From Alicyclobacillus mali NBRC 102425 (GTDB lineage: Bacteria > Bacillota > Bacilli > Alicyclobacillales > Alicyclobacillaceae): DNA of 59,018 nucleotides. Shown here piece by piece: positions 17,612 to 23,883 of this stretch (the first letter of the stretch is position 1; every line of letters starts with the position of its first letter). The stretch covers positions 1 through 59,018 of the forward strand of contig NZ_BCSG01000022.1 in NCBI RefSeq assembly GCF_001570745.1, written 5' to 3'. Under the pieces are notes generated by a model. That model saw only the letters and a program-made list of their open reading frames with translations. It did no database searches and was not told where the DNA came from. The position numbers and the translations under genes are program-made.

Positions 17612-18478
17612 ATGACGGTGTGGCACATTGGCGATCGCGTCACGCGCCGCTCGTACGGCCACGACATATGCTTCGTGATTGTTGAATTGGACGAAAGCTC
17701 GAAGACCGCCATCCTCAAAGGAATGGACGTGCGCCTGATGGCCGACGCGCCCTTTGACGATCTCGCCCCTGTCACCGAGGAGGATATGCGCGCGTTCGAG
17801 GCGATGCGCACGCAGGTGGTCGGCGAATGCCTCCGCATCATTCGATCCCGCCGCGCCCACGACTCGGAGAAGCGGCTTCTCCGCAAGGAAGCGCGGTACC
17901 GTGCGAATCCCGATTTTTTCGAGCGCCCCGGCACCGTGCTCCACATGGACGGCGACGGCAGTTACCTGCAGAAGTGCCTCGCCATGTACGAGGAGCTCGG
18001 CATTCGCGCCGTCGGGCAGCACGTGGCGGAATCGGAGATGCCGGGAAAGGTCGTGCATCTGCTCGAGACGTATGCGCCGGATATCCTGATCATCACCGGC
18101 CACGACGGCGTCATCCGCAAGGGCAAGGACTGGGCGGACATCAAGAACTACCGCAACTCGCAAAACTTCGTGAAGACGGTCGCCAATGCGCGGAAATACG
18201 TGCGCAACATGGACGATCTCGTCATCATCGCGGGGGCGTGCCAGTCGCATTTTGAGGCGTTGATCGAGGCGGGCGCCAACTTCGCCTCGTCGCCGCAGCG
18301 GATCATGATCCACGCGCTCGATCCCGTCTTTATCGCGGAAAAGGTGGCGTTCACGCCCATTCACGAGACGGTGAACCTGTACGACGCGGTGAAGTCCACC
18401 TACACAGGGACGGACGGGATCGGCGGCCTGGAATCGCGCGGAAAGTACCGGCTTGGTCTGCCGAAATCCTTGTACTGA
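17612..18478 (+). CDS. yabG: Sporulation-specific protease YabG
   Basis: A 288-residue Cys-type peptidase that trims spore-coat proteins late in sporulation so that they can be cross-linked. The start WHIGDRVTRRSYGHDICFVI and the central block YAPDILIITGHDG are recognisable YabG signatures, and the length matches the B. subtilis protein (about 290). The conserved His and Cys of the family are likely in ITGHDG and IIAGACQSHFEAL. It begins the run of genes conserved with the B. subtilis yab region; veg follows after a 220-base promoter region. Confidence 0.95.
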   Translation: MTVWHIGDRVTRRSYGHDICFVIVELDESSKTAILKGMDVRLMADAPFDDLAPVTEEDMRAFEAMRTQVVGECLRIIRSRRAHDSEKRLLRKEARYRANPDFFERPGTVLHMDGDGSYLQKCLAMYEELGIRAVGQHVAESEMPGKVVHLLETYAPDILIITGHDGVIRKGKDWADIKNYRNSQNFVKTVANARKYVRNMDDLVIIAGACQSHFEALIEAGANFASSPQRIMIHALDPVFIAEKVAFTPIHETVNLYDAVKSTYTGTDGIGGLESRGKYRLGLPKSLY

Positions 18479-18645: not shown

Positions 18646-18675
18646 TTGACACCATGTTCCGCGCGATGGTATAAT
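18646..18675 (+). promoter_or_regulatory. Main sigma-A promoter of veg
   Basis: Consensus TTGACA and TATAAT with an 18-base spacer, 26 bases before the veg start. The B. subtilis veg promoter is also very strong. Confidence 0.85.
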
Positions 18676-18700
18676 GAAGCGCGGAAAGAGGTGGTGTGTG

Positions 18701-18976
18701 TTGGCCAGGAATGCGCTCCACGACATTAAGAAGAGTCTGGATGGACTCGTCGGTGAACGCGTGTTGCTCCGAGCAAACGGAGGCAGGCGAAAAACCATTG
18801 AGCGCTTCGGGGTTCTCGAAGAGACGTATCCGTCGGTATTCGTCGTCAAGCTCGACCCGCCGGACGGATCGTTTGAGCGCGTCTCGTACAGCTATGCGGA
18901 CGTGCTGACCGAGACCGTCGAGCTGATGCTGTGCAAGGAGGACGGGAACACCACCAAGTTCGTGGTCGAACACTGA
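18701..18976 (+). CDS. veg: Veg protein
   Basis: A 91-residue small protein. The core [20 protein letters not shown] and [19 protein letters not shown] match B. subtilis Veg nearly residue for residue. Veg promotes biofilm formation by antagonising SinR and is highly expressed from a constitutive promoter; whether SinR exists here is unknown. The TTG at 18701 is chosen because it lies seven bases after AGAGGTGG and gives the normal N-terminal length. It sits between yabG and sspF as in Bacillus. Confidence 0.93.
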
Positions 18977-19174: not shown

Positions 19175-19360
19175 ATGGCACGGCGGAGAAGCACCATGTC
19201 AGATGCGTTCAAGGTGGAACTGGCCAAGGAGCTCGGGTTCTACGACACGGTCCAGCGCGAGGGCTGGGGCGGGATCAAGGCGCGCGACGCCGGGAACATG
19301 GTGAAGCGCGCCATCGAGATCGCAGAACAGGCGTTGGCTGAGAAGTCCGGGCAGAGGTGA
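19175..19360 (+). CDS. sspF: Small acid-soluble spore protein, SspF type
   Basis: A 61-residue alpha/beta-type SASP that coats and protects DNA in the forespore. [19 protein letters not shown] and [18 protein letters not shown] match B. subtilis SspF closely. The start ATG follows CAGGGAGGG. It is preceded by a consensus sigma-G promoter and followed by a strong terminator, so it is a single-gene forespore transcript. Confidence 0.96.
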
Positions 19361-19364
19361 CCGG

Positions 19365-19393
19365 GGCGGCCGGGATGATCCCGGCCGCCTTTT
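19365..19393 (+). terminator. Rho-independent terminator of sspF
   Basis: GGCGGCCGGG and CCCGGCCGCC form a 10-bp stem around ATGAT, followed by TTTT. It separates sspF from the cyanophycin operon. Confidence 0.93.
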
Positions 19394-19402
19394 GCTGCAA
19401 TC

Positions 19403-19432
19403 GCATGATGGCAAGCCATTTCGGAAAGATTA
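19403..19432 (+). promoter_or_regulatory. Candidate forespore (sigma-F-type) promoter of the cyanophycin operon
   Basis: GCATG, 15 bases, GGAAAGATTA. The -10 fits the sigma-F consensus GGNRANAHTR at every position; the -35 fits GYWTA at four of five and the sigma-G form GHATR fully. It lies between the sspF terminator and cphB, 38 bases before the start codon. No sigma-A promoter is evident in this gap. Confidence 0.5.
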
Positions 19433-19470
19433 TCTGGATGATCTAACCAATAACCTGGGAGGGCGTGCGG

Positions 19471-20307
19471 TTGGGGCAGAAAGGACCTCTCGTCATCATC
19501 GGCGGCGCGGAGGACAAGGTGGGTGAGTGCCGCATCCTGCGCCGATTTCTCCATCTCGGCGGCGATAAACACGCGCGGGTCCTCGTCATCACCGTGGCGA
19601 CGAAGACGCCGGTCGAGGTGGGCGCGGAGTACGTGGATGTGTTTCACCGCCTCGGCGTGGACGACGTGCGGACGTTCGACGTGTCCACCCGCGAGGCTGC
19701 GAACCGCGACAGCGCGGTGCAGATGATCGCGCAGGCGACGTGCATCTTTTTCACCGGTGGTGAACAGGAGCGCATCACGAAGCTCCTGGGGGGAACCAAG
19801 GCGGACGCGGCGCTGCACGAGGCGCACCGCAACGGCGTCGTGCTCGGCGGCACGAGCGCGGGCGCCTCCATGATGTCGAGCACCATGATTGTCGAAGGCG
19901 AGGGCGAGACGAATCCTCGTCCGTCCATCGTGCACATGGCACCCGGCATGGAGTTTCTCGATGGCTGCGTGATCGACCAACACTTCGCGCAGCGGGGCCG
20001 GCTCGGAAGACTCCTGTCGGCGGTCGCGCAGTATCCGCATCATCTGGGACTTGGCATTGATGAGGACACGGCCGTCGTGGTGCACGACGGGCACGTGCTC
20101 GAGGTCATCGGCCGCGGAGCGGTGAGCGTCGTAGATGCGGGCAGCGCGACGTACTCCAATCTCGACCGCATTCGCCGGGACGAGTCGCTGGCGCTTTGCG
20201 ACGTGATACTGCACACGCTGCCCGAGGGCTGCGGATTCCTGCTGCGCGAACGCAGGCCCATCCCCGACTTCCCACACTGGCTTCGCCAGAAGGAGCTATC
20301 CTCATGA
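19471..20307 (+). CDS. cphB: Cyanophycinase
   Basis: A 278-residue serine peptidase of the S51 family that cuts the Asp-Arg polymer cyanophycin into beta-Asp-Arg dipeptides. Recognisable are the N-terminal LVIIGGAEDK, FTGGEQERI and the nucleophile Ser129 in GGTSAGASMM, then the DQHFAQRGRLGRL block. No signal peptide is seen, so it acts in the cytoplasm. The TTG at 19471 is seven bases from GGGAGGG; GTG at 19465 is too close. It overlaps cphA by four bases (ATGA), so degradation and synthesis enzymes are made together. Confidence 0.94.
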   Translation: MGQKGPLVIIGGAEDKVGECRILRRFLHLGGDKHARVLVITVATKTPVEVGAEYVDVFHRLGVDDVRTFDVSTREAANRDSAVQMIAQATCIFFTGGEQERITKLLGGTKADAALHEAHRNGVVLGGTSAGASMMSSTMIVEGEGETNPRPSIVHMAPGMEFLDGCVIDQHFAQRGRLGRLLSAVAQYPHHLGLGIDEDTAVVVHDGHVLEVIGRGAVSVVDAGSATYSNLDRIRRDESLALCDVILHTLPEGCGFLLRERRPIPDFPHWLRQKELSS

Positions 20308-22949
20308 ACATCGTGCGCATTCGCTTCATCGAGGGGCCCAACATCTTTATCCACCGCCCCATTCTCCTGGCCCGCTTGGATCTCGGGGTCTACACGGGCA
20401 AAGAGAGCATCGACATCCCTGGACTCGGAGAGCGCCTTCTGCATCACTTCCCAGGTCTGCGCCAACACCACTGTGCCAAGGGCCGGCCGGGCGGCTTCAT
20501 CGAGCGGCTCGAGGACGGCACCTATTTCGGGCACATCTGCGAACACGTGGCCATCGAAATTGGCCATCTCGCAGGCATTCCGGCCAACTACGGCAAGACG
20601 GTGTACGCCGGGCGGCCGGGGCTGTACGACGTGGCCATCGAGTGTGCGTCGTTTCCCGCCCAGCGCCACGCGCTCGAGGCCGCCGTGGACGTGGTGCGTT
20701 CGCTCGCCGAAGGCCGCGAACCGGGCGATCTCGACGCGCTGGTTCGGGAAGTCGCGCGGCTCTACGAGGATGACCGCCTCGGCCCGAGCACGCAGGCCAT
20801 CGTGGACGCGTGTCGGCGGCGCAACATCCCCGTCCGGCGACTGCAGGCGAGCTTCCTCGAGCTCGGGTACGGCGTGCACCGCAAACGCATCGAGGCCACC
20901 CTCACCGACCGGACGTCGTGCGTCGCGGCCGACATCGCGAGCGATAAGGCGCTTACCAAGCACCTGCTCGAAGAGGCGGGGCTCGCCGTGCCGCCGGGCG
21001 GGGTGGCGGCGGACGAGGCCGAGGCCGTTTTTCTCTGGCGCCACCTCGGCGGGCCCGCCGTCGTCAAGCCGCTCGACGCGCGCCAGGGCCAGGGCGTATC
21101 GCTGCGCCTCGAGTCCGAGGCGGAGGTGCGCGCTGCATTTCGCGAGGCCAGGCGGTACGCGCGGGAGGTCATTGTCGAAGCGTATGTGCCAGGCGAGAAC
21201 GTGCGCGTGCTGGTGGTCGACGGCCGCGCCGTCGCCGCGTCCGTGCGCGAGCCCGCCTTCGTGGAGGGGGACGGCGTGCACACGGTCCGTGAGCTGGTCG
21301 ATCTCGTCAACCGCGATCCGCGCCGCGGCGAGGGCCACGAGAAGCCGCTCACCAAGATCGCGATCGACGAGATCGCGCGGCAGGTGCTTCTGCGCCAGGG
21401 CATGTCGCCTGAGTCGGTGCCGCAGCTGGGCGAGCGGGTGGCGCTGCGCGAGAGCGCCAACCTTTCGACGGGCGGCGAGGCGCGCGACGTGACGGACGTG
21501 TTGCACCCATCCTACCTGCGCATCGCCGAGCGGGCCGCCGAGGCCGTGGGCCTTGACGTGTGCGGCGTCGATCTCGTCGTTCCCTCGCTCACGGCTCCCG
21601 CGGACGCCGGCGGATGGGCGGTGATTGAGGTGAACGCGTGTCCGGGCATCCGCATGCACGAGCACCCGTCGAGCGGCTCGCCGCGCCGGGCTGCGGAAGC
21701 CATTGTGGAGTCGCTGTTTCCGGCGGGATCGGACGGCCGAATTCCCATCGTGTCCATCACGGGCACCAACGGCAAGACGACCACCGCGCGGCTCGTCGCG
21801 CACGGGTTCGCCGTCGCGGGCAAGACGGTGGGGCTCACGACAACCGGCGGCGTGTACGTCGGAGGCGAGTGCGTGTTAAAGGGCGATACCACGGGTCCGA
21901 TGAGCGCGCGGCTCGTGCTTTCGAATCCGCGCGTCGAGGTCGCTGTGCTCGAGACGGCGCGCGGCGGGATTGTGCGCGGGGGGCTCGCCTACGATATCGC
22001 GGACGTCGGCGTCATCACCAACCTCTCGCTCGATCACGTCGGCCAGGACGGGCTCGAGTCCATCGACGACATCGCCTTTGTCAAAGCGCTCGTCGGCGAG
22101 TGCGTCCGCGACGACGGCGCGGTGGTCCTGAACGCGGATGATCCCCGTGTCCTCGCCCTGTCGCCGCGCTTTCGCGCGCGGCTGGTGCTCGTGTCGCAGG
22201 TTCCGGAAAACCCGCACGTCGCCCGGCACGTGCAGGCGGGCGGCATGGCGGTGGTGGTCTCGGACGGCGTGGTCTACGAGTGGCAGGGCGGCATCCAGCG
22301 GCCCATCCTCGCCGTCGGACAAATTCCCATCTGCCTGGGCGGTCTCGCGCGCTTTCACGTCGAAAACGCGGCGTTGGCGGCGGCCGCCATGCGGGCAGCG
22401 GGCCTCTCTCGCTCCACGGTTGCCAAGGCGCTCGCAACATTCTTGCCCCAGCAGAACGCCGGCAGGCTCGAGATGTACGTGTTGCCGAACGGGGCGCGCA
22501 TCGTACTGGACTACGGTCATAACCCGGCCGGCTTCCGGGAGGTCGGACGATGGCTCCAGGCGCTGCCCTGCAGGCGCCGCGTCGGCGTGGTGGGTGTTCC
22601 GGGCGACCGGGCCGATCACGTCGTGGAGGAGGCGGGGCGGGCCCTCGCACCGTGGTTCGACGAATTCATCGTGAAGGAGGACGCCGATTTGCGCGGTCGC
22701 GCGCCTGGCGAGATCGCGGACATCCTGCGCTCTTCCATCGCACGGGCGTGTCCCGAGAAAAAGGTGGAGGTCGTCCCGGACGAGCGAGAGGCCGCGCTCG
22801 CTGCCGCGAAGGCGCTCGGGCCGGAAGACGTCGCCTGCGTGTTTTACGAGCGCCTTGCGCCGCTCAAGGAGGCGCTTGAGGAGCTCGGCGCGCGGCCGTG
22901 GCACAGGGTTCTGGCGGACGGAGCAGGCGAGCGGCTTGCGATGCTGTGA
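20304..22949 (+). CDS. cphA: Cyanophycin synthetase
   Basis: An 881-residue enzyme that builds multi-L-arginyl-poly-L-aspartate from Asp, Arg and ATP. Domain order is standard for CphA1: an N-terminal domain, an ATP-grasp domain (KPLDARQGQGVSLRL, about residues 255-270, and IEVNACPGIRMHEHP near 440-455), then a Mur-ligase-like domain with the P-loop SITGTNGKTTT near residues 485-495 and DYGHNPAGF near 735. It uses the ATGA overlap with cphB. The pair is inserted between sspF and ispE, which are neighbours in B. subtilis. A nitrogen-reserve role during spore formation is inferred. Confidence 0.95.
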   Translation: MNIVRIRFIEGPNIFIHRPILLARLDLGVYTGKESIDIPGLGERLLHHFPGLRQHHCAKGRPGGFIERLEDGTYFGHICEHVAIEIGHLAGIPANYGKTVYAGRPGLYDVAIECASFPAQRHALEAAVDVVRSLAEGREPGDLDALVREVARLYEDDRLGPSTQAIVDACRRRNIPVRRLQASFLELGYGVHRKRIEATLTDRTSCVAADIASDKALTKHLLEEAGLAVPPGGVAADEAEAVFLWRHLGGPAVVKPLDARQGQGVSLRLESEAEVRAAFREARRYAREVIVEAYVPGENVRVLVVDGRAVAASVREPAFVEGDGVHTVRELVDLVNRDPRRGEGHEKPLTKIAIDEIARQVLLRQGMSPESVPQLGERVALRESANLSTGGEARDVTDVLHPSYLRIAERAAEAVGLDVCGVDLVVPSLTAPADAGGWAVIEVNACPGIRMHEHPSSGSPRRAAEAIVESLFPAGSDGRIPIVSITGTNGKTTTARLVAHGFAVAGKTVGLTTTGGVYVGGECVLKGDTTGPMSARLVLSNPRVEVAVLETARGGIVRGGLAYDIADVGVITNLSLDHVGQDGLESIDDIAFVKALVGECVRDDGAVVLNADDPRVLALSPRFRARLVLVSQVPENPHVARHVQAGGMAVVVSDGVVYEWQGGIQRPILAVGQIPICLGGLARFHVENAALAAAAMRAAGLSRSTVAKALATFLPQQNAGRLEMYVLPNGARIVLDYGHNPAGFREVGRWLQALPCRRRVGVVGVPGDRADHVVEEAGRALAPWFDEFIVKEDADLRGRAPGEIADILRSSIARACPEKKVEVVPDEREAALAAAKALGPEDVACVFYERLAPLKEALEELGARPWHRVLADGAGERLAML

Positions 22950-23004: not shown

Positions 23005-23883
23005 TTGTTGTTGCAACGCGCGTACGCGAAGATCAACCTGACCCTGGACGTCCTCGGGCGCCGCGACGACGGCTATCACGAGGTGGACATGGTCATGCAG
23101 ACCGTGGATTTGTCAGACGTCATCTGGCTCGAGCCGCGAGAAGACGGCGAGATCACCATGGAGAGCGCGTCGTCCTCGGTGCCGGTGGACGAGCGGAACC
23201 TGTGTGTGCAGGCGGCGCAGGCGTTCAGGCAACGGACGGGTTTTGCTGGCGGCGTGCACATTCAGCTCGAGAAGAACATCCCTGTCGCCGCGGGGCTCGC
23301 CGGTGGGTCGAGCGACGCCGCGGCCGTTTTGCGCGGGCTGAATCAGCTGGCAGGCGCGGGGCTCACGCTGGACGAGCTCGCGGATATCGGCGCGGAGGTG
23401 GGCTCCGATGTCCCTTACTGCGTGTACGGCGGGCTCGCCATCGCGCGCGGGCGAGGCGAGCGGGTGGCTCGCTATCCGCACGTCCCAAGCATGTACGCGG
23501 TGCTGTTGCACCCGCGCCTCTTCGTCTCAACTGCGGACGTCTACCGCGGCCTTGAGCCTTCCGATTTCACCTCCTCCCCGCGCAGCGAAGAGATGGTTCG
23601 CTGGCTGGCGGAGGGAGATCACGAGCGGGCCGTCGCACTCGTATACAACGCTCTGGAGCGCGTCACCCTGAACCTCTATCCGGAGCTTCGGGCGCTCAAG
23701 GAGCGCGTGACCTCCATCGCGCAGCGGCCTGTGCACATGTCGGGATCGGGGCCGACGATGTTCGTGCTCACGCCGGTGCAAACGCACGCGCAGCGGCTGT
23801 ACAACGCGCTCCGCGGCATCATGAAAGACGTGTACGTGTGCCGGTTTGTCGGCGGCTACCATCAGGCACACGCGCCGAGCTAG
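23005..23883 (+). CDS. ispE: 4-diphosphocytidyl-2-C-methyl-D-erythritol kinase
   Basis: A 292-residue GHMP kinase that phosphorylates CDP-methylerythritol in the MEP route to isoprenoids. AYAKINLTLDVLGRRDDGYHE at the N-terminus, the ATP loop PVAAGLAGGSSDAAA (about residues 93-107), DVPYC and HMSGSGPTMF at the C-terminal end are all diagnostic. Three consecutive TTG codons (23005, 23008, 23011) follow GAGGTGGGG, so the exact start is uncertain by one or two residues. purR follows ten bases later, as in B. subtilis. Confidence 0.95.
   Translation: MLLQRAYAKINLTLDVLGRRDDGYHEVDMVMQTVDLSDVIWLEPREDGEITMESASSSVPVDERNLCVQAAQAFRQRTGFAGGVHIQLEKNIPVAAGLAGGSSDAAAVLRGLNQLAGAGLTLDELADIGAEVGSDVPYCVYGGLAIARGRGERVARYPHVPSMYAVLLHPRLFVSTADVYRGLEPSDFTSSPRSEEMVRWLAEGDHERAVALVYNALERVTLNLYPELRALKERVTSIAQRPVHMSGSGPTMFVLTPVQTHAQRLYNALRGIMKDVYVCRFVGGYHQAHAPS

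Follow-up and report, generated by a model that had tools for sequence, protein, structure and literature searches.

A probable forespore operon for cyanophycin in Alicyclobacillus mali and other endospore-forming Bacillota

Why would an endospore former carry genes for making and degrading cyanophycin, a polymer that serves cyanobacteria as a nitrogen store, in the midst of its sporulation genes? The question is raised by a 59,018-nucleotide stretch of Alicyclobacillus mali NBRC 102425 (assembly GCF_001570745.1, contig NZ_BCSG01000022.1, positions 1 to 59,018; the whole of it is called the window below), in which cphB, for a cyanophycinase, and cphA, for a cyanophycin synthetase, lie between sspF and ispE. 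Our analysis suggests that cphBA in endospore formers is an operon of the forespore, transcribed with sigma-F and perhaps later with sigma-G, that it would supply cyanophycin for the spore, and that it is an ancestral unit lost in the Bacillus subtilis lineage, a reading that we put at roughly three chances in four. The features at its centre are as follows.

19363..19391, + strand: hairpin with a short T run, the probable sspF terminator (fold -27.3 kcal/mol, z -3.9)
19403..19407, + strand: GCATG, -35 element of a putative forespore (sigma-F type) promoter, from the sequence
19423..19432, + strand: GGAAAGATTA, -10 element of the same promoter, from the sequence; the upstream GG points to the sigma-F type
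19457..19463, + strand: GGGAGGG, ribosome binding site of cphB, from the sequence
19471..20307, + strand: cphB, cyanophycinase (TIGR02069, 304.6 bits, cut-off 126.6)
20304..22949, + strand: cphA, cyanophycin synthetase 1 (TIGR02068, 1100.9 bits, cut-off 850)

Direct reading bore out the layout proposed in an earlier sequence-only reading of this DNA, namely sspF, a strong hairpin, GCATG, a 15-base spacer (19408-19422), GGAAAGATTA, cphB, cphA and ispE, with the cphA start codon ATG (20304) and the cphB stop codon TGA (20305-20307) overlapping as ATGA at 20304-20307. Across 19403-19432, the -35 pentamer, the 15-base spacer and the -10 element with its upstream GG all have the sigma-F form. The likelier start of cphB is the TTG at 19471, seven bases past GGGAGGG; the alternative GTG at 19465 lies very near that site. 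The hairpin at 19363-19391 is absent from the output of a simple terminator scan. Right behind the -10 element, at 19436-19451, stands a block, GGATGATCT[AG]ACCAAT, that is common to five of six near relatives.

Whether this promoter is a peculiarity of one genome was judged with the pattern GHATR-N14-16-GGNNANNNT[AG], derived from the B. subtilis consensus; it was written after reading the 40 upstream regions from the window's family, Alicyclobacillaceae, and then left unchanged for the rest of the phylum, for other Bacilli and for cyanobacteria. The pattern occurs upstream of cphB in 30 of the 40 family regions (shuffle mean 0.6, maximum 3; means 0.2-0.6 across runs), 41 of 99 other phylum loci (shuffle mean 2.1, maximum 7), 7 of 10 other Bacilli loci (0.08) and 20 of 40 named Firmicutes (0.72; these overlap in part with the genomes of the phylum set), and in 1 of 37 cyanobacteria (0.38). 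The phylum loci are 101 fetched from the 124 above-cut-off genomes besides the window's, 99 of which were scored (L168 and L177 had no anchor); the named loci are the best 80 of 562, made up of 37 cyanobacteria, one Sorangium that was left out and 42 others, 40 of which were scored, those with fewer than 200 bases upstream being dropped.

The matches are also confined in position. Across about 716 kb of family loci there are 32 strict matches on the cphB strand, 30 of them upstream of cphB, and 19 on the other strand. Outside the family, 32 of 42 matches lie within a 14-base window, picked post hoc, that runs from 93 to 106 bases ahead of the GG conserved in CphB. With a TA ending, the pattern has no match in nine neighbour-gene sets of the family loci; with T[AG], it is found in the family at 2 of 34 glmU, 1 of 39 yabG and 0 of 39 veg regions and in none of four other gene sets, and in the phylum at 3 of 46 purR and 5 of 81 glmU regions and in none of three further sets. 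Among the six near relatives, conservation is 0.87 in the -35 element, 0.82 in the -10 element and 0.48 over the initial 11 bases of the spacer, whose final four bases are identical as well. The sigma-F type is present in 10 of 15 family genera and, at least once, in 17 of 36 phylum families (either forespore type in 20 of 36). The forespore promoter proposed for A. mali thus proves better supported than when it was put forward, extending to most of the family and part of the phylum.

Cyanophycin might instead be an ordinary vegetative nitrogen reserve whose genes lie among sporulation genes by chance, in keeping with its role in cyanobacteria. Clostridium ljungdahlii, too, seems to draw on it under stress during growth, when granules form and cphB is expressed, with cphB also counted among the up-regulated sporulation genes (PMC13241827). 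Against such a role, a sigma-A pattern was found in only 1 of the 40 family cphB regions, below the 3.3 expected, and in 37 of 39 veg regions, which served as a control, and a hairpin separates cphB from sspF. The same 40 regions had no sigma-E and no sigma-K match, the sigma-K scan finding 14 of 39 yabG regions, so that a vegetative promoter (sigma-A) and mother-cell ones (sigma-E, sigma-K) were rejected for the family cphBA for want of enrichment. In the 99 phylum regions, sigma-A matches were likewise not enriched (30, with 27.4 expected).

The distribution of cyanophycinase speaks to the same issue. It scores above cut-off in 121 of 336 phylum genomes with SpoIVA and in only 4 of 62 without (odds ratio 8.2, p 5e-7, uncorrected for kinship); three of the four exceptions are 75%, 61% and 90% complete, and the fourth is a weak match in a complete genome. 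This rarity in genomes without SpoIVA, together with the promoter scan, makes an ordinary vegetative reserve improbable. At the same time, 215 of the 336 sampled SpoIVA-positive genomes have no cyanophycinase above cut-off, and the polymer is therefore not needed for sporulation in general.

If the promoter is a forespore one, which of the two forespore factors reads it? As references we used spoIIR, which we take to be a sigma-F gene, and spoVT, which we take to be a sigma-G gene. When a wider range of -35 pentamers was allowed and, in the -10, the initial G alone was required, 29 of 30 family spoIIR regions showed GNWTA-N15-GNNNANNNT, with GTTTA as the -35 in 26 of these and GG in 22; the spoIIR of the window's own genome has GT where most others have GG. 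Of 30 family spoVT regions, 28 show GNATA-N18-CATAATA and none has the GG pattern. The sspF of the window has a sigma-G type element upstream (GCATA-N18-CATCGTA); as a sigma-G control sspF was weak (5 of 38), and spoVT was therefore used. In the cphB promoters the sigma-F-like GG goes together with a spoVT-like -35. A promoter read mainly by sigma-G would explain why the -35, GCATA or GCATG, is nearer to spoVT than to the GTTTA of spoIIR; it would also suit the pure sigma-G type in 3 of 40 family members and the GT in the window genome's own spoIIR. We consider it unlikely, given that 30 of 40 cphB regions have the GG ahead of the -10 and none of 30 spoVT regions has the GG pattern, and given the conserved G on that side of the -10 that marks sigma-F promoters in Clostridioides difficile (PMC3789822). 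From their sequence, we attribute the cphB promoters to sigma-F, with possible additional use by sigma-G.

The neighbourhood raises a second question, that of how cphBA came to lie where it does. The gene order in the window, from open frames, family models for the first seven genes and profile searches, is yabG-veg-sspF-cphB-cphA-ispE-purR-spoVG-glmU-prs-pth; the PurR family model matches a window protein above its cut-off, and yabJ was not used as a neighbour marker in the locus profile searches. The flanking genes with their scores are listed here.

17612..18478, + strand: yabG, sporulation peptidase, neighbour (TIGR02855, 362.7 bits, cut-off 270.4)
18674..18976, + strand: veg, neighbour (NF046033, 145 bits, cut-off 135)
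19175..19360, + strand: sspF, small acid-soluble spore protein, neighbour (SASP PF00269, 29.7 bits, cut-off 22)
23005..23883, + strand: ispE, conserved downstream neighbour (TIGR00154, 253.7 bits, above its cut-off)

In B. subtilis, sspF adjoins ispE, an adjacency that led the sequence-only reading to call the cphBA operon inserted and that would suit a recent insertion or horizontal gain in this lineage. Also cited on that side is a control set in which 5 of 14 genomes, B. subtilis among them, gave any cyanophycinase match, with 2 of 14 passing the cut-off and their identities not reported. The comparison across relatives does not support an insertion. Cyanophycinase is above cut-off in 40 of 41 Alicyclobacillaceae genomes (the exception is 62% complete), with cphA beside cphB in all 40. 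In the phylum sample 125 of 398 genomes have it, and in the class sample 69 of 398; of those 69, 30 belong to the window's family and nine to another family of its order. Among the 97 usable phylum loci outside the window's family (the 101 less four truncated ones), 82 have ispE no more than 5.5 kb downstream of cphBA; these represent 29 of 36 families, and in 80 of the 82 ispE is at next-gene distance. Nine other Bacilli families contributed 10 loci, all short stretches; cphB directly follows sspF in 8 of them, and ispE was detected in 5 of the 10. The order sspF-cphB-cphA-ispE recurs in the named loci of Alicyclobacillus pomorum, A. contaminans and Tumebacillus permanentifrigoris.

Trees of CphA, CphB, IspE and GlmU (116 loci, midpoint rooting) each place the window's family in one clade of 34 with support 1.0. 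Outside the family, tree distances of CphA correlate with those of IspE at 0.56 (permutation maximum 0.13) and with those of GlmU at 0.33 (0.14); IspE itself tracks GlmU weakly (0.23, permutation maximum 0.16), and support for vertical descent of cphA with its neighbourhood is therefore moderate. Since cphB-cphA-ispE is widespread, sspF precedes cphB in other Bacilli and the CphA and IspE trees agree, the sspF-ispE arrangement of B. subtilis looks derived. A recent gain here thus becomes highly improbable, and it is simpler to suppose that the B. subtilis lineage lost cphBA. The synteny suggests that cphBA has long belonged to spore formers, as an original part of the sspF/ispE-spoVG region. 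In family f72 (6 of 6 loci) and in Thermoanaerobacterium saccharolyticum (L343), cphBA lies away from ispE and has a sigma-G type element, GTATA-N18-[CA]ATANTA, upstream (loci L048, L049, L054, L057, L089, L090 and L343).

What would such an operon make? CphA covers positions 1-860 of the 862 in the TIGR02068 profile and scores as a cyanophycin synthetase equivalog. Its closest solved structure is PDB 7lg5 (664.8 bits, all three domains matched), CphA1 from Synechocystis, with which it shares the Cx19HxxEH primer site, the GTNGKT loop, the Asp-His of the M domain and the Asp-binding NLS loop; it also keeps the residue aligned with R309. It differs in its developmental setting, in a Gln at the H267 position and in an Asp at the E215 position, the latter read from the alignment and seen in the five other sequences inspected as well. 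Functional roles of CphA1 residues are taken from PMC9262961 and PMC9427784, and the Cx19HxxEH site is what enables SuCphA1 to produce primers for itself (PMC9262961). The C-HxxEH pattern was matched by all 40 family CphA sequences, all 140 from other Bacillota and 9 of the 10 from other Bacilli; for GTNGKT the counts are 40, 137 and 10, with some genomes counted twice among the 140. We infer that CphA is a CphA1 with a primer-making site that would polymerise Asp and Arg.

CphB scores as a cyanophycinase equivalog and has the serine nucleophile motif. Its closest solved structure is PDB 7uqv (263.5 bits), followed by 3en0 (158.2 bits), both matched over nearly the whole protein; it shares the GTSAGA serine motif with these family S51 cyanophycinases and differs from them in genomic setting and promoter. 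GTSAGA and DQHF are invariant across 23 aligned CphB sequences. Three observations on gene structure stand apart from this. At L041 and L138 the cphA matches are split over two overlapping open reading frames, possibly through a frameshift or an assembly error. Three Bacilli genomes (L177, which is G308; G591; G608) have open reading frames of 852-862 codons with two tandem cyanophycinase-like domains each. Lastly, 28 of the 37 cyanobacterial loci (L286-L353) have a CphA-like open reading frame near cphB, mostly on the opposite strand; all 28 are without the Mur GTNGKT pattern and were not used as a control.

Several findings weigh against the forespore reading. The strict pattern is missing in 10 of 40 family members; all three members of genus g5 have only the sigma-G type, and 7 of the 40 have neither, one of them being the close relative L086 (G002), with GCATC as its -35 instead of GCATG. 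Beyond the family, 58 of 99 phylum loci are without the strict pattern, 16 of 36 families (f11, f23, f29, f44 and f96 included) have neither type in the fetched loci, and sigma-E and sigma-K matches are slightly above chance (6 with a shuffle mean of 3.0, and 4 with 1.5). The forespore gene gpr has neither forespore pattern in any of 30 family regions, and the patterns are therefore incomplete. Changing H267 in the G domain of SuCphA1 to Ala inactivates that enzyme (PMC9262961); all 40 family sequences and 127 of the 140 from other Bacillota carry Gln there. We take this Gln to be a probable clade difference, not a loss of activity, because the clostridial and Desulfitobacterium enzymes are reportedly active. 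From the growth-stress use in C. ljungdahlii it follows that cyanophycin is not purely a forespore matter in all species. Finally, because the degrading and the building enzyme share an operon, there is a danger of futile cycling; perhaps CphB is restrained up to germination, or perhaps cyanophycin is turned over within the forespore.

The sequence suggests the following course of events. RNA polymerase with sigma-F, perhaps later with sigma-G, would start transcription in the forespore about 30 bases upstream of cphB, beyond the sspF terminator, and CphA, judging by its family and motifs, would build cyanophycin from Asp and Arg within that compartment. CphB would then free beta-Asp-Arg, which IadA, encoded elsewhere, would split; breakdown would most likely come at germination and outgrowth, providing early nitrogen, carbon and arginine. 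These last steps are the least secure.

The isoaspartyl dipeptidase IadA, which is able to cleave beta-Asp-Arg in the final step, is above cut-off in 36 of 41 family genomes, whereas the IaaA family (PF01112) has no match in any of the 41. The window's genome has a single copy (474.8 bits, G000:C19:67960-69120), away from cphBA. The five genomes without IadA above cut-off all belong to the window's genus; four of them (G004, G007, G008 and G013) keep cphB and have no IaaA, and another dipeptidase may act there, while G002 has an iadA match in pieces, below cut-off, at G002:C1:1051453-1052293. Upstream of iadA, with regions covered from 20 of the 36 genomes, the GG-type -10 alone occurs in 11 of 20 (shuffle mean 1.3, maximum 5); this pattern was picked after seeing the sequences and also occurs in 7 of 34 glmU and 1 of 38 ispE regions. 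In the window's genome the iadA upstream element is GCATA-N18-CATCATA, of sigma-G type. We treat forespore control of iadA as a lead only.

Forespore expression could instead serve structure, with cyanophycin aiding spore assembly or volume and not feeding germination. All of the promoter evidence fits that view just as well, and Liu et al. in 2016 reportedly saw fewer and smaller spores in a cphA mutant of Clostridium perfringens. A spore-matrix role for the gene in that species is also cited in PMC5532821. The position of cphB as first gene of the operon and the presence of a dipeptidase gene whose own forespore-like -10 is weaker suit breakdown instead, and we regard a structural role as doubtful. 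The fullest form of the forespore reading, in which cphBA stood by ispE in the early forespore regulon before Bacilli and Clostridia split, was lost in the B. subtilis lineage and was joined by forespore-controlled IadA in Alicyclobacillaceae, is more tentative than its core, at slightly short of even odds.

How much of this is new? C. perfringens and segmented filamentous bacteria are spore formers with both genes, and in the latter a cphAB-ispE-ger neighbourhood adjoins the pair to ispE and a germination role has been proposed (PMC9482736); the accessible text describes no sigma-F control for either, and the A. mali locus differs in having sspF upstream and in belonging to the Bacilli. Bacillus horikoshii 20a is likewise a spore former with cyanophycin genes, which are CphA2-like, three in tandem and 2.76 Mb from the cyanophycinase (PMC5532821), whereas here CphA1 adjoins cphB. 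Titles and abstract openings gave no mention of forespore sigma control of cyanophycin genes and nothing on cyanophycin synthetase in Alicyclobacillus, most subscription journals lying outside the coverage. Hence, the expectation that such a unit would be novel holds in part: the enzymes and a clostridial spore role were already in print, and broad forespore control is the part not found in the literature searched.

Of 179 Firmicutes genomes that have CphA1, 10.1% were found to encode IadA or IaaA (PMC10206079), and the occurrence of IadA in 36 of 41 family genomes bears on this missing isoaspartyl dipeptidase of the Firmicutes. The wider consequence concerns how a dormant spore is fed when it wakes, to which the current answer comes mostly from B. 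subtilis, whose spores on waking draw amino acids from the breakdown of small acid-soluble proteins. If it is true that many spore formers pack an Asp-Arg polymer into the forespore, then the model organism would be one without a widespread part of spore biology.

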